Assembly (NCBI RefSeq): GCF_030813595.1
Contig: NZ_JAUSUH010000001.1
Span: 124,001 to 188,000, forward strand
Direction: 5' to 3'
Length of the DNA: 64,000 bases
Origin: Ancylobacter vacuolatus
GTDB taxonomy: Bacteria > Pseudomonadota > Alphaproteobacteria > Rhizobiales > Xanthobacteraceae
This document shows, in pieces, positions 3,217 to 61,165 of the stretch; position 1 is the first letter of the stretch, and each line of letters starts with the position of its first letter. Both the position numbers and the translations under genes were made by a program. The notes under the pieces were generated by a model, which was not told the DNA's origin, did not search any database, and worked only from the letters and a program-made list of their open reading frames with translations.

Positions 3217-4815
3217 ATGCTTTACTTCTCGAAATGGAAGGCGTTCGCGATCCTGGCGGTCTCGGCCATCATCTGTTTGATGGCCGTGCCCAGCCTGCTG
3301 TCGCAATCCGCCTATGACAGCCTGCCCAGCTTCCTCCAGCGCAAGATCGTGCTGGGCCTCGACCTTCAGGGCGGGTCCTACATCGTCCTGCAGGTCGACG
3401 CCCAATCCGTGCGCAAGATCCGCCTTGAGCAATTGCGCGACGACGCGCGCCGCGTGCTGCGCGATGCCAAGATCGGCTATACCGGCCTCGCCATCCAGGG
3501 TGACGCGGTCGAGGTGCGGATCCGCGACGGCCAGGATGTCGAGGCGGCGCTGACCCAGTTGCGTACGCTGGCTCTGCCGATCGGCGGCGCCATGTCGACC
3601 GCCGGACAGCTCGACACCGATGTCTCGCGCGATGGCAACACCATCGCACTGGCGCCGACATCGGCCGGCGTCCAGTCGCGCACCATCCAGGCGGTGTCGC
3701 AGTCGATCGAGATCATCCGCAAGCGTATCGACCAGCTCGGCACCACCGAGCCTTCGATCCAGCGCCAGGGCGCTGACCGTATCCAGGTGCAGGTGCCTGG
3801 CTTGCAGGACCCCTCGCGCCTCAAGGCCCTTCTCGGCCAGACGGCGCAGCTGACCTTCCGCCTCGTCGACAACACGATGAGTCCGCAGCAGGCGCTGCAG
3901 GGCCGCGCGCCGGCCGGCACCGAGGTTCTCACCTCTCAGGGCAACCCGCCGGTTCCCTATCTGATCGAGCAGCGCGTGCTGGTCGCGGGCGAAGACCTCA
4001 CCGACGCGCAGCCGGGCTTCGACCCGACGACGCGCGAGCCGGTCGTCACCTTCCGCTTCAACACCAATGGCGCCCGCCGCTTCGCCGAGGCGACGCAGGC
4101 CAATGTCGGCCGGCCCTTCGCCATCATCCTCGACAACCACGTCATCTCGGCGCCAGTCATCCGCGAGCCGATCCTCGGCGGCTCTGGCCAGATCAGCGGC
4201 AATTTCACCGTGCAGGAAGCGAATGACCTCGCCATCCTGCTGCGTGCCGGTGCCCTGCCGGTGCCGCTGCAGGTGGTGGAGGAGCGCACGGTCGGGCCGG
4301 GCCTTGGCGCGGATTCGATCCGGGCAGGCCTCATCGCCTCGATCGTCGGCGCGACGCTGGTGGCGCTGTTCATGGTGGCGACCTACGGCCTGTTCGGCGT
4401 CATCGCCAATATCGCAGTGGCGATCAATGTCGGCATGATCTTCGGCCTGCTGGCCATGCTCGGGGCGACGCTGACCCTGCCTGGCATCGCCGGCGTGGTG
4501 CTCACGGTCGGCATCGCGGTGGATTCCAACGTGCTGATCTATGAACGCATCCGCGAGGAGGCGAGGGCAGGGCGTTCGGCGATTTCGGCCATCGATGCCG
4601 GCTTCTCCCGCGCGCTGGCGACGATCCTCGATTCCAACATCACCACCTTCATCGCGGCGGCGGTGCTGTTCTATGTCGGCTCCGGCCCGGTGCGTGGCTT
4701 CGCCATCACCTTCGGCATCGGCATCATGACCACCGTCTTCACCGCCTTCACGCTGACCCGCCTTATGGTGGCGCTGTGGGTGCGCTGGCAGCGCCCCCAG
4801 CGCGTGCCGATCTAA
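3217..4815 (+). CDS. secD: Protein translocase subunit SecD
   Basis: SecD (532 residues) uses the proton-motive force with SecF to finish export through SecYEG. There is an N-terminal transmembrane segment (about 8-28), the DLQGGSYIVLQV motif, a large periplasmic domain, and five C-terminal membrane segments (about 365-525) containing the family motif GIAVDSNVLIYERIREE. The stop is 17 bases before secF, so the two are almost certainly co-transcribed. Confidence 0.97.
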   Translation: MLYFSKWKAFAILAVSAIICLMAVPSLLSQSAYDSLPSFLQRKIVLGLDLQGGSYIVLQVDAQSVRKIRLEQLRDDARRVLRDAKIGYTGLAIQGDAVEVRIRDGQDVEAALTQLRTLALPIGGAMSTAGQLDTDVSRDGNTIALAPTSAGVQSRTIQAVSQSIEIIRKRIDQLGTTEPSIQRQGADRIQVQVPGLQDPSRLKALLGQTAQLTFRLVDNTMSPQQALQGRAPAGTEVLTSQGNPPVPYLIEQRVLVAGEDLTDAQPGFDPTTREPVVTFRFNTNGARRFAEATQANVGRPFAIILDNHVISAPVIREPILGGSGQISGNFTVQEANDLAILLRAGALPVPLQVVEERTVGPGLGADSIRAGLIASIVGATLVALFMVATYGLFGVIANIAVAINVGMIFGLLAMLGATLTLPGIAGVVLTVGIAVDSNVLIYERIREEARAGRSAISAIDAGFSRALATILDSNITTFIAAAVLFYVGSGPVRGFAITFGIGIMTTVFTAFTLTRLMVALWVRWQRPQRVPI

Positions 4816-18641: not shown

Positions 18642-20719
18642 TGGCCAAGATCATCGTCGACGACATCGAGCTGGATGTTCCGCCGGAGTTCACGCTGCTC
18701 CAGGCCTGCGAGGCGGCGGGCGCGGAAATCCCGCGCTTCTGCTTCCATGAGCGGCTGTCCATCGCCGGCAATTGCCGCATGTGCCTCGTCGAGGTGAAGG
18801 GCGGTCCCCCCAAGCCCACCGCCAGCTGCGCGATGAATGTGCGCGACCTGCGCCCCGGCCCGAATGGCGAGCCGCCTGTCGTGCTCACCAAGAGCCCGAT
18901 GGTGAAGAAGGCGCGCGAAGGGGTGATGGAGTTCCTGCTCATCAACCACCCGCTCGACTGCCCGATCTGCGACCAGGGCGGCGAATGCGACCTTCAGGAT
19001 CAGGCCATGGCCTATGGCGTGGACACGTCCCGCTATGCCGAGAACAAGCGCGCGGTCGAAGACAAGTATATCGGCCCGCTGATCAAGACCTCGATGACGC
19101 GGTGCATCCAGTGCACCCGCTGCGTGCGATTCACCACCGAGGTGGCGGGCGTGGCCGAGCTCGGCGCCATCGGGCGCGGCGAGGATATGGAGATCACCAC
19201 CTATCTTGAGGCGGCGCTCTCCTCCGAGCTGCAGGGCAATGTCGCCGATCTCTGCCCGGTCGGCGCGCTGACCCAGCGTCCCTATGCCTATCACGCCCGC
19301 CCCTGGGAGCTGTCGAAGACCGAATCCATCGACGTGATGGATGCGGTCGGTTCCAATATCCGCGTCGACACGCGCGGCCGCGAGGTCATGCGCGTCCTGC
19401 CGCGCCTCAATGAAGACGTGAACGAGGAGTGGATCTCCGACAAGACCCGCTACATCTGGGACGGTCTGAAGACCCAGCGCCTCGACCGCCCCTATGTGCG
19501 CGTCGGCGGCAAGCTGCAGCAGGCGAGCTGGCCGCAGGCCTTCGCCGCCATCGCCGAGAAGGTGAAGGGCGTGCCCGGCACCCGCATTGGCGGGCTCATC
19601 GGCGACCTCGCCTCGGTGGAAGAGGCGTTCGCGCTGAAGGCGCTGCTCAGCGCGCTCGGCTCGGCCAACATCGATTGCCGGCAGGACGGGGCGAAGCTCG
19701 ACCCCGCGCTCGGTCGCGCCAGCTATCTGTTCAACGCCACCATTGCCGGCATCGAGCAGGCGGATGCGCTGCTGATCATCGGCTCCAACCCGCGCCTTGA
19801 AGCGAGCGTGCTCAATGCCCGCATCCGCAAGCGCTGGCTGCAGGGAGGCTTCCCGATCGGCCTGATCGGCGAGGCGGTCGACCTGACCTACCCCTATGAC
19901 TATCTCGGCGCCGGTTCCGACACGCTGGCCGACCTGCTCGCCAGTGGCAGCTTCGCCGAAACGCTGAAGGGCGCCAAGCGGCCGCTGATCCTGATCGGGC
20001 AGGGCGCTCTCGCCCGTCCCGACGGCGCGGCGGTTCTGGCGCTGGCGGCCCGCGTGGCGGACGCCGTCGGTGCCGTGGTGGAAGGCTGGAACGGCTTCTC
20101 CGTGCTGCACACGGCCGCTTCCCGCGTCGGCTCGCTCGATATCGGCGCGGTGCCGGGCGAGGGCGGGCTTGACGCGGTGGCGATGACCAATGCCGGCGGA
20201 GCCGACGTGCTGTTCGCGCTCGGCGCCGACGAGATCGACATCGCCCCTGGCGCCTTCGTGGTCTATCTCGGCACCCATGGCGATCGCGGTGCTCATCGCG
20301 CCGACGTGATCCTGCCGGGCGCCGCCTATACCGAGAAGTCGGGCACCTATGTGAACACGGAAGGGCGGGCGCAGATCGCCAACCGCGCCGCCTTCCCGCC
20401 TGGCGAGGCGCGCGAGGACTGGGCGGTGCTGCGCGCGCTGTCCGATGTCGTCGGCCATCGCCTGCCCTTCGACAGCCTGGCGCAGCTGCGCGCGGCGCTC
20501 TATGCGGCGCACCCGCATCTGGCCCGGCTCGATCATGTGGCGCCGGCGGACCCGGCGGCCGTGGCCGCGCTGGCCGCGTCCGGTGGCTCGCCGGCGAGCG
20601 GGCCGTTCCGCGGCGTCGTTACCGATTTCTATCTCACCAATCCGATCGCACGCGCCTCCGCCGTGATGGCTGAATGCTCCGCGCTCGCGTCCAGCCGCCA
20701 CGCGGCGGCGGCCGAGTGA
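18641..20719 (+). CDS. nuoG: NADH-quinone oxidoreductase subunit G
   Basis: NuoG, 692 residues. [2Fe-2S] ligands are Cys34, 45, 48 and 63; the N5 cluster ligands are His103, Cys107, Cys110 and Cys116; and Cys155, 158, 161 and 205 (CIQCTRC then LCPVGAL) bind N4. A molybdopterin-oxidoreductase-like domain follows from about 220, without obvious cofactor. The start at 18641 gives a normal ferredoxin-type N-terminus. Completes the NADH module with NuoE and NuoF. Confidence 0.97.
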
Positions 20720-25500: not shown

Positions 25501-27014
25501 TGTACGACTGGCCCATTCTCTCCGTCGTCACCTTCCTGCCGCTGGTCGGCGCGCTGCTGATCGTGCTGATGATCCGCGGCGACGACGAGGTGGCCAAGCG
25601 CAACGCCCGCTGGGTGGCGCTGTGGGCGACCCTTGTCACCTTCGTCATCTCGCTGCTGCTGCTGTTCGGCTTCGACCCGTCGAATCCGGACTTCCAGTTC
25701 GTCGAGTACCAGGCCTGGCTCGGCGATGTCGCTGCCTACCGGATGGGCGTCGACGGCATTTCGCTGCCCTTCGTGCTGCTGACCACGCTCTTGATGCCGA
25801 TGTGCATTCTCGCGAGCTGGGACGCGATCCAGCACCGCGTGAAGGAGTACATGATCTGCTTCCTGGTGCTCGAAACACTGATGATCGGCACCTTCTCCGT
25901 CCTCGACCTGCTGCTGTTCTACTTCTTCTTCGAAGGCGGCCTGATCCCGATGTTCCTCATCATCGGCATCTGGGGGCATGGGCGTAAGGTCTACGCCGCG
26001 TTCAAGTTCTTCCTCTACACGCTGGCCGGCTCGGTGCTGATGATGCTCGCCATCATGGCCATTTACTGGCAGGCGGGCACCACCGACATCGCCGTGCTGC
26101 TGAAGCATGATTTCCCGGAGGGCATGCAGTACTGGCTCTGGATCGCCTTCTTCGCCTCCTTCGCGGTGAAGATGCCGATGTGGCCGGTGCATACCTGGCT
26201 GCCCGACGCGCATGTCGAGGCGCCGACGGCGGGTTCGGTGATCCTGGCGGCGATCATGCTGAAGATGGGCGGCTACGGCCTGCTGCGCTTCTCGCTGCCC
26301 ATGTTCCCCGACGCCTCGGCCTATTTCGCGCCCTTCGTCTTCACCCTCTCGGTGATCGCGATAATCTACACCTCTCTGGTCGCGCTGCGGCAGGAGGACA
26401 TGAAGAAGCTGATCGCCTATTCCTCCATCGCCCATATGGGCTATGTGACGATGGGCATCTTCACCCTGACCCAGGAAGGCATCCAGGGGGCGGTGTTCCA
26501 GATGGTCAGCCACGGCTTCGTGTCGGGCGCGCTGTTCCTGTGTGTGGGCGTGCTCTATGACCGCATGCACACCCGCGAGATCGCGGCCTATGGCGGCCTC
26601 GTCTTCCGCATGCCGGTCTACGCCACGCTGTTCATGGTGTTCACCATGGCCAATGTCGGCCTGCCGGGCACGTCGGGCTTCATCGGCGAGTTCCTGACCC
26701 TGCTGGCCGCCTTCGGGCGCAATACCTGGGTGGCCTTCCTCGCCACAACAGGCGTCATCCTTTCCGCCGCCTATGCGCTCTGGCTCTACCGCCGGGTCGT
26801 ATTCGGCGCGCTGGAGAAGGAAAGCCTGAAGAACATCCGGGACGTGAACCCGCGCGAACTGGCCACGCTCGTTCCGCTGCTGTTCCTCACCATCCTGTTC
26901 GGCGTCTGGCCGCAGCCGATCCTCGACGCCTGCAATGTCGCGGTGAACGCGATCGTCGCGCGCGCTGATGTTGCGGCCGGCGCCATCAAGGCCGCCGCGC
27001 TGGTGCTGCCTTGA
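25500..27014 (+). CDS. nuoM: NADH-quinone oxidoreductase subunit M
   Basis: NuoM, 504 residues, second antiporter-like subunit: [18 protein letters not shown] carries the essential Glu and [20 protein letters not shown] the broken helix with conserved Pro. Translationally coupled to nuoL through the shared base at 25500. Followed by nuoN after 31 bases. Confidence 0.98.
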
Positions 27015-34920: not shown

Positions 34921-35628
34921 ATGTCGACCTCATCCGCGACCATTCCCCCGCGCGCCGCTCTCCACCTCGAAGGCGTCGAGCGCCGCTATGTCCAGGGCGA
35001 GGGCACGCTGGAAATCCTGCGCGGCGCCGACTTCACCGTGCTGGAAGGCCAGTCAGTAGCGCTCGTGGCGCCGTCCGGCACCGGCAAGTCGACGCTTCTG
35101 CACATTGCCGGCCTGCTGGAGCACCAGGACGCCGGCGAAGTGTTCATCGGCGGCACCGCCACGGCCGGGCTGGCCGATGCCGAGCGCACCCGCATCCGCC
35201 GCACCGGGGTCGGCTTCGTCTACCAGTTCCATCATCTCCTGCCGGAGTTCTCGGCGCAGGAAAATGTGATGTTACCGCAGATGATCCGTGGCCTGTCGCG
35301 CCGCGAGGCGGGGTCGCGGGCGAAGGAGCTGCTGAGCTATCTCGGCCTCGCCAAGCGGCTTGAGCATCGTCCCGGCGAGCTTTCCGGCGGCGAGCAGCAG
35401 CGCGTCGCCATTGCCCGTGCGGTCGCCAATGCCCCGCGCGTGCTGCTGGCCGATGAGCCCACAGGCAATCTCGACCCGCACACCGCCGACCATGTCTTCC
35501 ATGCCCTGTCGCAACTGGTGGAAGCCACGGGCCTCGCGGCTGTCATTGCCACCCATAATCTCGAACTCGCTTCCCGCATGCACCGCCGCGTCACGCTGCG
35601 GGAGGGCAAGGTGGTTGAACTCGCCTGA
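34921..35628 (+). CDS. lolD: Lipoprotein-releasing ABC transporter ATPase
   Basis: LolD, 235 residues. Walker [10 protein letters not shown], signature [14 protein letters not shown] and Walker [13 protein letters not shown] are intact. It powers LolC/E-mediated lipoprotein extraction. The ATG at 34921 follows GGAGGGACGCC; an earlier in-frame start would overlap lolC. Confidence 0.95.
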
Positions 35629-35715
35629 GGCGCGGGCCTGAAGGGCTGGCACGGGGCGCATGCGATTCGGTCTGGATGCCTCCAGCGCTGTTTTCGTTTC
35701 GTCAACCATGAACTG

Positions 35716-35730
35716 GAACGAAAAGAGAAC
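35716..35730. promoter_or_regulatory. LexA (SOS) operator, reverse orientation
   Basis: GAAC-N7-GAAC with spacer GAAAAGA is an exact reverse-complement match to the alphaproteobacterial SOS box GTTC-N7-GTTC. It lies 60 bases upstream of the small ORF at 35790 and 46 bases from a second box at 35762-35776. Confidence 0.75.
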
Positions 35731-35761
35731 ATGGGTTGATTGCGGGGATAAGCGCGGTCAT

Positions 35762-35776
35762 GTTCTCTCTATGTTC
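35762..35776. promoter_or_regulatory. LexA (SOS) operator overlapping the start region of the small membrane peptide gene
   Basis: GTTC-N7-GTTC with spacer TCTCTAT is an exact match to the alphaproteobacterial LexA operator. CTCTAT at 35767-35772 inside it resembles a -10 element (five of six bases against CTATAT), so LexA bound here should block transcription. It ends 13 bases before the ATG. Confidence 0.8.
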
Positions 35777-35789
35777 TGGGGAGGTCGAC

Positions 35790-35888
35790 ATGATCCGTGT
35801 TCTTGTTCAAGAAACCGCCGCTCTCGCGTCCATCGCTCTTTTCGTCGCCATGATTGGCTTGTGGGCTGGGGTCATCACCGGGGTGTGA
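35790..35888 (+). CDS. SOS-controlled small single-pass membrane peptide (SidA-like)
   Basis: A 32-codon ORF beginning ATGATCCGT, with GGGGAGG five bases before the ATG. The peptide starts MIRVLVQE and then runs hydrophobic (AALASIALFVAMIGLWAGVI, residues about 9-29), predicting a single membrane helix. Two exact LexA operators lie 14 and 60 bases upstream, so damage induction is expected. Caulobacter SidA, a 29-residue SOS-induced inner-membrane inhibitor of cell division, has the same features. Identity with SidA is inferred from size, topology and regulation, not from alignment. The neighbouring genes are lolD and dnaE. Confidence 0.75.
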   Translation: MIRVLVQETAALASIALFVAMIGLWAGVITGV

Positions 35889-35915
35889 AGCCCCGGCTTG
35901 ACGCTTGAGGCCTCT

Positions 35916-35980
35916 GCCTGAGGCATGAGCGTCTGCGACGCTCAGCCTGAGGCATGAAGGCTAGAGCCTTCAGCCTGAGG
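35916..35980 (+). repeat. Tandem hairpin repeats between the SOS peptide gene and dnaE
   Basis: Two tandem units of 29 and 28 bases (35916-35944 and 35945-35972) begin with GCCTGAGGCATGA, and a partial third begins GCCTGAGG. Each ends in an eight-base-pair hairpin with different sequence but kept pairing: TGAGCGTC/GACGCTCA (35926-35944) and TGAAGGCT/AGCCTTCA (35955... to 35972). A short AAGCC/GGCTT hairpin directly follows the peptide stop (35888-35899). The changed stems with kept pairing suggest RNA structure. A transcript-ending or dnaE-leader role is possible; no T-run is present. Confidence 0.7.
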
Positions 35981-36066
35981 ACAGCGGGGAGGGCGCCCCC
36001 GCAAGGGTGGACGCCGCCGCCAGGGGCGCCCACCATGTCGGGCTTCGAGTCGCGGGAGGATTAGAG

Positions 36067-39000
36067 ATGGCGCAGGCTGATGTCGGATTCGTGCATCTGC
36101 ATGTCCATTCCTCCTTCTCCCTGCTGGAGGGCGCGCTCAACATCGGCAAGCTGGCCGATCTCGCCAAGAAGGACCGCCAGCCGGCGATCGCGCTGACCGA
36201 CACCGGCAATCTGTTCGGCGCGCTGGAATTCTCCGAGAAGATGGCGGCCAGCGGCATCCAGCCGATTCTCGGCTGCGCCGTCGCGGTGGATTTTCCCGGC
36301 CCGGCCCCGCGCGGCCCCGCCAGCCTGGAGCGCCCGCGCATCGTCCTGCTCGCCGCCAGCGAGGAGGGCTGGAAGAACCTGATGGAGCTGGTATCTCGCT
36401 CCTTCCTCGACACCGCCTCCGACGGCGCCCCCCACATCAAGGCCGACTGGCTGGAGGGGCGCGCCTCTGGTCTCATTGCACTGACTGGCGGTCCCTTCGG
36501 TCCGATCGACCGCGCGCTGGCGGCCGGCAGCGCCGACCATGCAGAGCAACGGCTCGCCGCGCTCCGGGACCTGTTCGGCGACCGGCTTTATGTGGAAATT
36601 CAACGCCACGGGCTCGCCGAGGAGCGCCGCGTCGAGCCGGCGCTGATTGAGCTCGCCTACCGGCTCGACCTGCCTCTGGTCGCCACCAACGAGCCCTTCT
36701 TCGCCGCCCAGGATGACTATGAAGCCCATGATGCCCTGATTTGCATCGCCGAAGGCCGGCTGGTGGCGGAGGCCGACCGCCGGCAGCTGACCCCGGATCA
36801 TCGTTTCCGCACCCGTGCCGAGATGGCGGCACTGTTTGCCGATCTCCCGGAAGCCCTTGCCAATACCGTAGAAATCGCCCAGCGCTGCGCCTACCGCCCG
36901 CGCACGGTCAAGCCGATCCTGCCGCGTTTCACCCTTGACCGCGACGAGGCGGAGGAGTTGCGCCTGCAGGCGGAGGAGGGGCTGCGCAACCGTCTGGCGG
37001 TCCATGGCGCCACGCCGGGCTTGAGCGAGAAGGACTATGAGGACCGGCTGGCCTTCGAGCTCAGCATCATCGAAAAGATGAAGTTTCCCGGCTACTTCCT
37101 CATCGTGTCGGACTTCATCAAATGGGCGAAGGCGCAGGGCATCCCGGTGGGGCCGGGCCGTGGCTCCGGCGCCGGCTCGCTGGTCGCCTATTCGCTCACC
37201 ATCACCGATCTCGACCCGCTGCGCTTCGGCCTCCTGTTCGAACGCTTCCTGAATCCCGAGCGCGTGTCGATGCCGGACTTCGATATCGACTTCTGCCAGG
37301 AGCGTCGCGATGAGGTGATCCGCTACGTGCAGCAGCGCTATGGGCGCGACCAGGTGGCGCAGATCATCACTTTCGGCACCTTGCAGGCGCGCGGCGTGCT
37401 GCGCGATGTCGGCCGGGTGCTGGAAATGCCCTATGGCCAGGTCGACAAGCTGTGCAAGCTGGTGCCGCAGAATCCGGCCAATCCGGTGACACTGAAGCAG
37501 GCAATTACGGACGAGCCGCGCCTGCAGGGCGAGAGCGACGCCAACCCGGTGGTGAAGCGCGCCTTCGACATCGCCACCCGGCTGGAGGGCCTCAACCGCC
37601 ACGCCTCGACCCACGCCGCCGGCATCGTCATCGGCGACCGGCCGCTCTCCCAGCTGGTGCCGCTCTACCGAGACCCGCGCTCGGACATGCCCGTCACCCA
37701 GTACAATATGAAATGGGTCGAGCAGGCGGGCCTGGTGAAGTTCGACTTCCTCGGCCTGAAAACCCTCACCGTCCTCCAAACAGCCGTGCGCCTCGTCGCC
37801 CAGCGCGGCATCACGCTCGACCTGTCGACGATCCCGCTGGACGACAAGAAGACCTATGACATGCTGACCCGTGGCGAGACGGTCGGCGTGTTCCAGGTGG
37901 AAAGCGCCGGCATGCGGCGCGCCCTGGTCGACATGAAGCCTGACCGGCTGGAGGACATCATCGCGCTCGTCGCCCTGTACCGTCCGGGCCCGATGGCGAA
38001 TATCCCGGTCTATTGCGCGGTCAAGAACGGGCAGGAGAAGGCCGCCTATGCCCACCCGGCGCTGGAAGCCAGCCTGAAGGAGACCTACGGCGTCATCATC
38101 TACCAGGAACAGGTGATGCAGATCGCCCAGACCCTGTCGGGCTATTCGCTCGGCGAAGCCGACATGCTGCGGCGCGCCATGGGCAAGAAGATCCGCGCCG
38201 AGATGGACCAGCAGCGCGCGCGCTTCGTCGATGGTGCGGTTGAGCGCGGGGTGCCGAAGGCCAAGGCGTCGGAGATCTTCGACCTGCTCGCCAAGTTTGC
38301 CGATTACGGCTTCAACAAGAGCCACGCGGCGGCCTATGCGCTGGTCTCCTATCAGACCGCCTATATGAAGGCGAACTACCCCACCGAGTTTATGGCCGCC
38401 TCCATGACACTGGACATGGGCAACACCGACAAGCTGGCCGAATTTCGCCAGGAATCGCAACGTCTCGGCATCGAGGTGGTCCCGCCTTCGGTGAACCTCT
38501 CGGGGCGCGAATTTGCGGTGAAGGATGGGCGCATCCTCTACGCGCTCGCCGCCATCAAGGGCGTCGGCGGCCATTCGGTGGAGGCGATCGTCGAGGCGCG
38601 TGGCGGGCGAACCTTCGCCAGCCTTGCCGACTTCGCCTCGCGCATTAACGCTAAGGCGCTGAACAAGCGGACGATGGAGAGCCTGGTCAGCGCCGGCGCC
38701 TTCGACGCGGTGGAGAAGAACCGCGCCCGGGCGCAGGCGGCGATTGATTCCATTCTCGCCCACGCCGCCTCGGTCGGGGCGGAGGTGGCCTCGGGTCAGG
38801 GCAATATGTTCGGCGGGCCTTCGGTCGCGGCGGAACTGCCGATTCCCAATGCCGCACCCTGGCTCCCGGCCGAGAAGCTGCAGCGTGAATATGACGCTAT
38901 CGGCTTCTTCCTTACCGGCCACCCGCTCGATGATTACGGCAAGGCGCTGGACCGGCTGCGGGTGCAGCGCTGGACCGACTTCACCCGCTCGGTCCGCGCC

Positions 39001-39501
39001 GGCTCCATGGCCGGGCGCCTCGCCGCCACGGTGGTGAGCCGGCAGGAGCGGCGCACCAAGAGCGGAAACAAGATGGGTATCGTTGGCCTTTCTGACCCTT
39101 CCGGCCAGTTCGAGGCGGTGCTGTTCTCGGAAGCGCTGGCGCAGTACCGCGAATTGCTGGAACCCGGCAAGGCGCTGCTGCTGCAGGTCTCGGCCGAATT
39201 GCAGGGCGAGGATGTGCGCGCCCGCATCCAGACGGTGGAGCCGCTCGATCAGGCCGCGTCGAAGATGCAAAAGGGCATGCGCGTCTTCCTTCGCTCGCCC
39301 GAGCCGCTGGAAAGCGTGGCCACCCGGCTCGGCTCGCTCGGTGGCGGGCGCGGCGATGGTGAAGTGTCGCTGGTGCTGCTGCTGGGCGAGCGTGGCGATA
39401 CCGAGGTCGAGGTAAAGCTGCCCGGCCGCTTCAGCCTGTCGCCGCAGATCGCCGGCGCGCTGAAGGCGGTTCCCGGCGTCGAAATGGTCGAGATGGCGTA
39501 G
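36067..39501 (+). CDS. dnaE: DNA polymerase III subunit alpha
   Basis: Replicative polymerase, 1144 residues. The PHP domain starts at [14 protein letters not shown] (about residue 10); catalytic acidic residues sit in [36 protein letters not shown] and [20 protein letters not shown] are family motifs. A C-terminal OB fold is seen near 970-1060 ([19 protein letters not shown]). The ATG at 36067 follows CGGGAGGATTAGAG. The gene stands alone behind the SOS peptide region. This is the primary DnaE type, not the ImuC/DnaE2 mutasome form. Confidence 0.97.
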   Translation: [1144 protein letters not shown]

Positions 39502-58010: not shown

Positions 58011-60395
58011 ATGCATGTGCCGCCGCATCAGGGACCGAGAGACGCGCCGCGCCAGCGCGCGCGGGCGGCCGTGGTCGGCGAGGGGCAGGCGAGGCGGCAC
58101 CCGACCCACTGGCGCCTGCCGGGCCTGTCTTTGGCGGGACTCTGGCAGGGCGTGGCGACGGCGCTGGAGCGCGAGCTCGACGACCGGCGCGGCTTCCTGT
58201 TCCTGCCGATCGGTTTTGCCGCCGGGGCCGCACTGTATTTCGCCGCGCCGCAGGAGCCGCTGCCCTATGCCGGCTTTGTGCCGGCCCTCGCTTTTGCCGG
58301 GCTTGCCGTGCTGGCGCGGGCGAGGCCTTTCGCCTTCCACCTTATGGCGCTTCTCGCCGTGCTCGCCGCCGGTTTCGCGGTGGCGGCGCTGCAGGTGCAG
58401 CTCATGGCGCATCCGGTGCTGGGCCGGACGCTGAATGCGGTCGAGGTGCGCGGCTATGTCGAGGCGGCGGAACTGCGGCCGCGCGGCAGCCGCATCACGC
58501 TTGCCGTCACCGGCATGGAGCGCGCCGGGGTGGAGATGCCGCAGCGGGTGCGCGTCACCCTCGCCGGCCGGCAGCCCCCGGCAGTGGGCAGCCATGTGAC
58601 GCTGCGCGCTACGTTCGGGCCCCCGCCCGGGCCGTCCTACCCCGGCGGCTTCGATTTCGGGCGGGCGATCTGGCTGGATGGCATCGGGGCCACCGGCTAT
58701 GCGCTCGGCCGGCCGCAGCTGAGCCCGGCCTCCACGCCGCCGCCGCCGGGGCTGGCGCTGACCACCTGGCTCGACGGCACGCGGCGCGCCATAGCGGCAC
58801 GCATCCGCGCGGCGCTGCCGGGGGAGGAGGGGGGCGTTGCTATCGCCCTCGTCACCGGGCTGCGCGACGCGGTGCCGGAATCGATTGAGGAGAGCATGCG
58901 GATCTCCGGTCTCTCGCACGTGCTGTCGATCTCCGGCCTGCACATGGCGCTGGTGGCGAGCTCCGTGTTCTTCCTGGCGCGGGCGCTGCTGGCGCTGGTG
59001 CCGGACCTTGCGCTCTACCGGCCGATCAAGGCCTGGGCGGCGCTGCCCGCCATGCTGTCGGCCAGTTTCTACCTCCTGCTCTCCGGCGCCGAAGTGCCGA
59101 CCCAGCGCGCCTATGTGATGACGTTGCTGGTGCTGGCCGGGATCGTGCTCGGCCGGCCGGCGCTGACCGTGCGGACGCTGGCTGTGGCGGCGCTGGTGCT
59201 GCTGGCACTATCGCCCCGGGCAGTGCTCGATCCCGGGGCACAGATGTCGTTCGCCGCCACGCTCGGGCTGATTGGGGCCTATGAGCGCTTCGCCTTCCTC
59301 ATCACCCAGCCCTCGGCGAAGGCGGGGCGCTGGCTCGGGCTGCCGGGACGCTATATCGCGGCGCTGGTGCTGGCGTCGCTGGCGGCGGGCCTGACGACGG
59401 CGCCCTATGCCGCCTATCACTTCCAGCGCCTGGCGCCGCTGAGCCTGGTGGCCAATCTCGGCGCTATGCCGGTGGTGTCGTTCGTGGTCATGCCGGCGGG
59501 GCTCGCCGGCTCGATCCTGATGCCGTTTGGCTGGGACGACCCGGCCTGGCGACTGATGGGCTGGGGCCTCGCCCGCATGAGCGACATTTCCGACCTGGTC
59601 GCGGCGCTGCCCGGCGCCGATCGCGGCGTGCCGGCCATGCCCATGGCGAGCCTGGTGCTGTTCAGCCTCGGATTGATGGTGCTGTGCCTCGCCCGCACGA
59701 GGCTGGTCCTTCTCGCGCCGCTGCTGGCGCTCGCTGGCTTCGTCATGGCGGCGACGGCGCCGCGCCCCGACCTGCTGGTCGATGCCGAGGCGCGCACGGT
59801 GGCGGTGCGCGGCGGGGATGGCGCTCTCGCCTTCATGGGCGACCGCGATGCAGGGGTGGGCGGGCGCTTCGCGGTCGAGCAATGGCTGAGCGCGGATGGG
59901 CAGCGGCCGCGATTCGGCACGGGGGACCTCACCAAAGCTGCGGCCTGCGATCGGCTCGGCTGCACGCTTCCCCTGCCCGATGGGCGGCTCGTGGTGGTGT
60001 CGCGCGACCGGGATTCGCTGGAAGATGATTGCCGCCTGGCGGCAGTGCTGGTGACACCCTTCGCGCCGCCTCTCGACTGCGCGGCGACTGTGATCTATCG
60101 CGACGCCCGCACGGCTATCGGCGGGGTGGCCGGCACCCTGATGCCGGATGGCAGCCTTGCTCTCGCCAGCGCTCGCCCGGCTCAGGGAACGCGGCCCTGG
60201 GAACCGAAAGCCCCGCGCCCGCCACCTTCCGGAGCAGAGCGAGCCGGAGGTGCCCGCGCCTCGCCTGGGAGCAAAATCGCATCAAAGCCGGCCGCTGCGC
60301 CGGCGCCAACAACCTCCGGCCCCGCCGAGGCGACCGGCGCGCCACCCTTGTCCTCGCCCGAGACGGCGCCGCCTGCCGACGACGATCCTCAGTAG
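58011..60395 (+). CDS. comEC: ComEC/Rec2 family membrane protein without a metallo-beta-lactamase domain
   Basis: Membrane protein of 794 residues. An N-terminal DUF4131-type region (about 60-210) is followed by the competence domain of about eight helices (residues 270-560), with [20 protein letters not shown] as a family signature. The C-terminal part (about 580-700) resembles a degenerate tail, [15 protein letters not shown], then a Pro/Ala-rich end. The HxHxDH motif of a metallo-beta-lactamase domain is not visible. DNA uptake is the known role of the family; whether this strain is competent is unknown. ATG 58011 was chosen for GGGG at -8. Confidence 0.86.
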
Positions 60396-61084
60396 CGCCG
60401 GAAGAGCCCGACCAGCTTGCCTTGGATGCGGACCCGGTCCGGGCCGAAAATGCGCGTCTCATAGGCCGGGTTGGCGGCCTCAAGCGCCACCGAGGCGCCC
60501 TTGCGGCGCAGGCGCTTCAGCGTGGCTTCCTCGTCATCGATCAGCGCGACGACGATTTCGCCCGTGCTGGCGGCGTCGCATTTGCGGATGAGCGCCAGAT
60601 CGCCATCGAGAATGCCGGCCTCGATCATCGAATCGCCGCGGACTTCCAGCGCGTAATGCTCGCCGCCCGACAGCATTTCCGGCGGCATGCCGATGGTGTG
60701 GTCGCGCGACTGGATGGCGGAAATCGGCGTGCCGGCGGCTATGCGGCCCATGACCGGGATCGATACGACGCGGCGGTCGCCATCATCGTCCGAGGAGGGG
60801 CGCACCTTGCCGAGATTGCCCTCGATGACATTGGGGGAGAAGCTGCGGACAGGCTTCGTGGGCTGCGCGTCCTCCGGCAGGCGGACCACTTCCAGCGCGC
60901 GCGCCCGGTTTGGCAGGCGGCGGATGAAACCGCGCTCTTCCAGTGCCGTGATCAGCCGGTGAATGCCCGACTTCGAGCGCAGGTCGAGCGCCTCCTTCAT
61001 TTCCTCGAAAGAAGGCGGCACGCCGTCCTGCTGGAGGCGTTCATTGATGAACAGGAGCAGCTCATGCTGTTTGCGGGTGAGCAT
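60389..61084 (-). CDS. lexA: LexA repressor
   Basis: LexA, 231 residues, from ATG 61084 (an in-frame TTG lies just upstream). A winged-helix domain (first ~70) precedes the self-cleavage peptidase domain: the scissile Ala-Gly is in [12 protein letters not shown] (117-118), the catalytic Ser is Ser152 in RGDSMIEAG, and the Lys is Lys190 in EATLKRLR. RecA-stimulated cleavage frees SOS genes. Its 3' end overlaps the convergent comEC by 7 bases. Its own operator lies at 61146-61160, and matching boxes control the peptide gene near 35790. Confidence 0.97.
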
Positions 61085-61136: not shown

Positions 61137-61165
61137 AGACTAGCCGTTCTTATTGTGTTCCACAA
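61137..61165 (-). promoter_or_regulatory. Promoter of lexA
   Basis: On the minus strand, TTGTGG (61165-61160) and TAGTCT (61142-61137) are 17 bases apart. The exact LexA operator fills most of the spacer, consistent with autorepression. Confidence 0.5.
61146..61160. promoter_or_regulatory. LexA (SOS) operator of lexA
   Basis: GTTC-N7-GTTC with spacer TTATTGT, an exact match to the alphaproteobacterial consensus, 62 bases upstream of the lexA start. It serves as an internal control for the boxes at 35716 and 35762. Confidence 0.85.

Follow-up and report, generated by a model that had tools for sequence, protein, structure and literature searches.

The 32-codon open reading frame that separates lolD from dnaE in Ancylobacter vacuolatus, preceded by two LexA-type operators, raises a double question: is so short a frame a gene at all and, if it is, does it encode a division inhibitor comparable to SidA of Caulobacter? 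The window examined, a stretch of 64,000 nucleotides, carries in this region, all on the + strand, lolC/E, lolD, two successive LexA boxes, a Shine-Dalgarno sequence, the 32-codon ORF and dnaE. The upstream neighbor lolD (34921-35628, start set at ATG) matches NCBIfam TIGR02211 at 2.1e-72 with 243 bits, under the curated cut-off of 307.75, and the downstream neighbor dnaE (36067-39501), encoding the DNA polymerase III alpha subunit, scores 1508.7 bits with NCBIfam NF004226 for a cut-off of 1002. Operator 1 (35716-35730) is an exact GTTCN7GTTC on the - strand, where it reads GTTCTCTTTTCGTTC, the + strand being GAACGAAAAGAGAAC. Operator 2 (35762-35776, +), also exact, is GTTCTCTCTATGTTC and ends one base 5' of the Shine-Dalgarno sequence GGGGAGG (35778-35784, +, by direct reading), which is followed by the 5-base spacer TCGAC and the ATG at 35790. 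The ORF (35790-35888, stop included, +) encodes MIRVLVQETAALASIALFVAMIGLWAGVITGV, a predicted SidA-like single-pass membrane peptide in which direct reading of the sequence reveals a single hydrophobic stretch, its insertion in the membrane being predicted. The original prediction had described the 32-codon frame, the GGGGAGG five bases before the ATG, the single hydrophobic helix and the two exact LexA operators, and each of these elements was found exactly as described. A terminator-like hairpin is located between both boxes (35737-35760), and a search of 35600-36100 for a sigma-70 consensus promoter found none.

The assignment of these operators to LexA can be examined within the same window. 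The Caulobacter LexA consensus is GTTCN7GTTC according to PMC4211646. The lexA gene of this genome was located on the - strand (matched part 60395-61084, start ATG at 61084, N-terminus read; TIGR00498, 6.3e-53, over cut-off), and an exact GTTCN7GTTC operator (61146-61160, +) is found about 60 bp upstream of it, which supports this sequence as the LexA motif of the Ancylobacter genome. The window contains six exact sites for 1.13 expected, a number reached in 1 of 100 shuffles; two precede the peptide start, one precedes lexA, those at 18677 and 45065 fall within long ORFs, and the last one is at 26871. Since operator 2 ends a single base before GGGGAGG, LexA bound there would probably extend as far as the region where the ORF starts.

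On the basis of comparative sequence data, the 32-codon ORF is a real gene, its conservation arguing against chance. A search of 61 genomes detected the peptide in 28 of the 29 other genomes of the same genus (E <= 2.7e-8), the sole exception, where it was not found, being G021 (91% complete), and also in five of the seven genomes from other genera of the window's family (E <= 0.0023). At least two exact boxes are present within 150 bp of the ATG in all 29 same-genus loci, the window genome included, at positions -74 and -28 in 17 of them; GGAGG is present in 25. In the same loci, lolD is found within 1.5 kb upstream in 29/29 and dnaE within 1.5 kb downstream in 28/29, L006 being the exception. 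The original prediction had also asked if the ORF, the box and the lolD-ORF-dnaE order persist in relatives, and their conservation was observed both in the genus and beyond it. Selection was estimated from these 29 loci, whose pairs are not independent: pN/pS is 0.30 in frame, compared with 1.02 and 4.6 for the two remaining forward frames, and the changes by codon position are 156/47/339. A spurious ORF was rejected on the basis of this in-frame ratio and of the conservation across the genus. Near-identical named loci belong mostly to Ancylobacter, with some other labels (e.g. Bosea sp. 117), and Bradyrhizobium comes next.

The survey was extended to the whole class Alphaproteobacteria with DNA taken upstream of dnaE from 180 loci, each family contributing one or a few, first across the class and then across the order; L166 was left out of the counts because its dnaE was not located, leaving 179 loci and 119 families. 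In many families, a hydrophobic peptide preceded by an exact box was observed upstream of dnaE, which provided 47 seeds of 24-47 residues. When the profile built from these seeds was compared with all 6,112 six-frame ORFs, seeds included, members were obtained at E <= 0.025 and the next ORF at 2.6. When the families were withheld one at a time, 47/47 seeds took first place in their locus and 39/47 reached E < 0.1; membership is less certain for the eight that do not when held out (L075, L095, L155, L173, L066, L202, L126 and L100). A member peptide is present in 67/179 dnaE 5' regions and 38/119 families, in a sample that is phylogenetically non-independent and includes three loci of family f89 selected because they match SidA. 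These families represent 28/50 of those in the window's order and 10/69 of those outside it, and no member was found at dnaE in the remaining 81 of the 119 surveyed.

In the 600 bp upstream of dnaE, 61/67 member loci carry an exact box vs 7/112 non-member loci (Fisher p 1.4e-32), an association that is partly circular since the 47 seeds were picked by eye near LexA boxes; shuffles preserving only the single-base composition predict 2.6 boxed loci in all. Less circular are the leave-one-family-out test, a profile built from SidA only, described below, and a place-blind search of whole genomes, which uses an alignment of the same seeds. This last search, at E <= 0.01, returned 23 matches in 22 of the 385 genomes of the class, and dnaE is found just downstream in 21 of the 23; of the remaining two, L282 lies at a contig end and L290 is a 366-residue frame. 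Among 80 of 255 confirmed stretches, an exact box occurs within 150 bp upstream in 80/80, dnaE within 1.5 kb downstream in 78/80 and lolD within 1.5 kb in 21/80; the two exceptions for dnaE are L375, which stops at a contig edge, and L327, where it is absent within 1.5 kb. The place just upstream of dnaE is probably ancestral and mostly retained. Among 68 members, profile position 7 is acidic (D/E) in 93%, position 17 is Phe in 82% and position 24 is Trp in 66%, the family motif being a charged or polar helix entry [RKEQ][DE], then A-A-[LF]-x-[SA], a mid-helix Phe and, often, a Trp seven residues on. Nothing convincing was obtained outside the class when 200 genomes from the phylum were searched, an unspecified share of them from outside the class; the only match there, G747 (E 0.009), was rejected as it lies inside a 225-residue frame. 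The plasmid and phage record collections yielded no peptide match; two IMG/VR contigs (L401, L402), where the hit is antisense to a phage ORF and lacks a box, were set aside as probable chance.

The frequent proximity of dnaE suggests another reading of the locus: dnaE would be the gene under LexA-box control, and the short ORF would be a leader peptide or have arisen by accident. The ORF and its boxes indeed lie about 180-350 bp upstream of dnaE, which is their common neighbor across families. The selection acting on the ORF at the amino-acid level (pN/pS 0.30) goes against this reading, and so do the loci where peptide and dnaE are separated. In three genomes of family f24 (G487, G521 and G551; loci L396, L397 and L398), the peptide and two boxes are followed by a different gene, and dnaE is absent within the 5 kb read; upstream of the peptide, lolD lies at about 0.3 kb in G521 (L398), and in G487 and G551 the end of lolD is about 2.2 kb away. 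The dnaE gene of G487, found on a separate contig, lacks an exact upstream box (L207). In G461, the peptide and its box lie together about 2.5 kb from dnaE, with two long opposite-strand ORFs between (L399), and the 5' region of dnaE itself contains no exact box (L228). In the two genomes where both places were read, G487 and G461, the boxes thus stay with the peptide, which speaks against their serving dnaE, and the assignment of the boxes to dnaE was rejected. Hairpins located between the ORF and dnaE in the window also count against it, and control of dnaE is considered highly improbable. These hairpins (35886-36010) are GC-rich and back-to-back, with a fold z-score of -3.4 and perfect 8-bp arms at 35926/35937 and 35955/35965, and could separate the transcripts of the peptide and of dnaE.

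The relationship of the peptide with SidA itself was addressed using curated and dedicated profiles. The nearest curated family is NCBIfam NF033228 (div_inhib_SidA, equivalog), the top match of the window peptide, at E 0.04; its 13.9 bits do not reach the cut-off of 35 and are too low for the NCBIfam SidA name. A whole-genome search with this model at E <= 1 gave no match in the window's genome. Over the 385 class genomes, 135 match at E <= 1, some of which led to the loci examined further (L031, L032 and L036), and only G416, a member of family f89, is over the cut-off. The cut-off is passed in 37/60 f89 genomes and, among 14 named control genomes, by Caulobacter vibrioides alone, so that f89 is presumably Caulobacteraceae and is taken as such here. 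The model is narrow: 9 of the 46 f89 genomes matching at E <= 0.01 stay under its cut-off, and it matches only 4/39 rows of the family at E <= 1.

With a profile built from 26 SidA peptides (24 distinct), the window ORF ranks first of 5,992 non-f89 ORFs (E 0.0058) and the top 22 are all dnaE-upstream family members, many members past these first 22 ranking low, down to 3,455 of 5,992. The profile-profile comparison of SidA with the family gives a probability of 96.0% in local and 79.7% in global mode, over 28 ungapped columns. The family profile deprived of all peptides of f1, the window's family, retrieves the window ORF at E 1e-9, and the profile deprived of f89 retrieves three peptides of that family (E 2.3e-5, 1.3e-3 and 5.4e-4). 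Peptides of about 30 residues hold little information and their hydrophobic composition inflates similarity scores; across 300 shuffles of either kind, no score came up to that of the window ORF or of the three f89 peptides. Genomic position agrees with these scores. The SidA gene of G416 sits between lolD and dnaE and, in over-cut-off SidA loci, dnaE is directly downstream in 30/30, an exact box is close upstream in 22/30 and lolD is within 1.5 kb in 10/30. As judged from these sequence comparisons, the window ORF is homologous to Caulobacter SidA, more than a functional look-alike, and is its probable orthologue. The original prediction, which had proposed a functional counterpart of SidA, is supported by these tests, and they go further, to homology and a shared place upstream of dnaE.

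Small hydrophobic peptides under SOS control are also known as toxins, TisB of E. coli being one of them, and the ORF could accordingly encode an SOS-induced toxin of the TisB/DinQ kind acting on the membrane itself, not on the divisome. Size, hydrophobic helix and LexA-type control are all similar. Pfam includes a TisB model. No Pfam family matches the window peptide at E <= 1, the acidic residue, the Phe and the Trp recur frequently among family members, and the peptide has both homology and place in common with SidA; to our knowledge, no SidA-like motif or dnaE linkage is known for TisB or DinQ. A toxin of this type, which differs by its toxicity on membrane functions, is thus regarded as unlikely here. 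DinQ of E. coli is comparable as an SOS-regulated small hydrophobic peptide, according to PMC3567139.

The window ORF is consequently interpreted as a syntenic homologue of SidA and, with good confidence on these sequence grounds, as an SOS-induced inhibitor of the FtsW/FtsI/FtsN complex. From operators, ribosome-binding site, selection, SidA homology and shared locus, all obtained from the sequence, we infer damage induction, membrane insertion and division block. In the undamaged cell, LexA bound to the two operators before the start would keep the gene off. Upon DNA damage, LexA would be cleaved and the gene of the peptide switched on. The 32-residue peptide would then insert in the inner membrane as a single helix and, by analogy with SidA, hold the late divisome (FtsW, FtsI, FtsN) inactive, so that septation would wait for repair. 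FtsW(A31K) suppresses SidA and not DidA. In FtsW of the window's genome, A31 and F145 are conserved and residue 246 is Ser, not Ala, with a numbering deduced from f89 FtsW; this match lends slight support, since FtsW is conserved anyway.

Another possibility is that the peptide shares the ancestry of SidA and fulfills a different SOS role in the envelope, for instance on Lol transport or on another membrane enzyme. The frequent proximity of lolD (29/29 same-genus loci; within 1.5 kb in 21 of the 80 named loci) can be cited in its favor, together with the large divergence from SidA and the fact that function tests are confined to Caulobacter. For SidA itself, however, lolD is within 1.5 kb in only 10/30 loci, dnaE being there in 30/30, and the conservation of A31 and F145 points to FtsW, though this protein is conserved anyway. 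Such a role appears very unlikely, and inhibition of the divisome is retained as the preferred function.

YneA, SosA and ChiZ of other phyla are longer than the SidA-like peptide and are not known to be related to it. According to PMC13396833 and PMC6851548 they are DNA-damage-induced membrane inhibitors of late division, which the window peptide would be as well. DidA of Caulobacter is likewise, in PMC4211646, a damage-induced single-pass inhibitor of the late divisome; it differs by its 71 residues, its SOS-independent expression and its binding to FtsN. SidA of Caulobacter, also described in PMC4211646, remains the closest system, with 29 residues vs 32 here, one hydrophobic helix in each, LexA boxes upstream (exact in 22/30 SidA loci), a gene directly upstream of dnaE and profiles aligning over their 28 ungapped columns. 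The window peptide differs from it by its score under the NCBIfam cut-off (13.9 of 35 bits), by FVAM where f89 SidA has mostly FVWM, by the presence of Trp25 and by a longer tail.

The breadth of this SidA-like family looks new, and its unexpected width is the main interest of the locus. No report of SidA outside Caulobacter was found in the literature searched; the paper said to have defined SidA, by Modell et al. in 2011, may already mention homologues. The family provides a concrete gene to test in many bacteria, including plant symbionts, that can be found by its locus upstream of dnaE, its motif and its operator. The natural sequence variation from 38 families could also serve to map the way in which such a small peptide might block FtsW.

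Fifteen additional copies of the peptide gene were retrieved, nine in the window's genus and six in other genera. The six copies from other genera are dnaE-linked and boxed, whereas the nine same-genus copies (L291, L292, L295, L299, L300, L302-L305) are diverged, with no exact box nearby and no dnaE in the stretch read. In five of these loci (L291, L295, L299, L300 and L302), the neighbors include ProQ, RHH_4, a Cro/CI-type HTH protein and DUF5131 (phrog_2045), as well as a LexA DNA-binding domain and a phage-type sliding clamp. The gene at 4018-4380 (+) of L302 encodes a protein of 121 residues that contains a LexA DNA-binding domain and could be a separate repressor. The surroundings of these five loci look like prophage early regions, and the box-less second copies are possibly phage-borne division inhibitors. 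It seems rather likely, on the whole, that the SidA checkpoint, rather than being peculiar to Caulobacter, is an ancient system of Alphaproteobacteria: a peptide induced by the SOS response and directed at FtsW, its gene mostly still beside dnaE in dozens of families including Bradyrhizobium and unnoticed because it is so short, with box-less copies taken up by prophages, which might thereby time the arrest of host division themselves.

Two minor observations were made at dnaE loci. Seven dnaE regions (L153, L190, L217, L112, L124, L144 and L149) have an exact box and no peptide detected by the profile; some of them may hold more diverged members, and a hydrophobic 56-residue frame is present in L144. 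Finally, genome G033 displays two dnaE-linked copies of the peptide gene (L293 and L294) on short contigs, a situation that may result from the assembly or from a mixture of strains.
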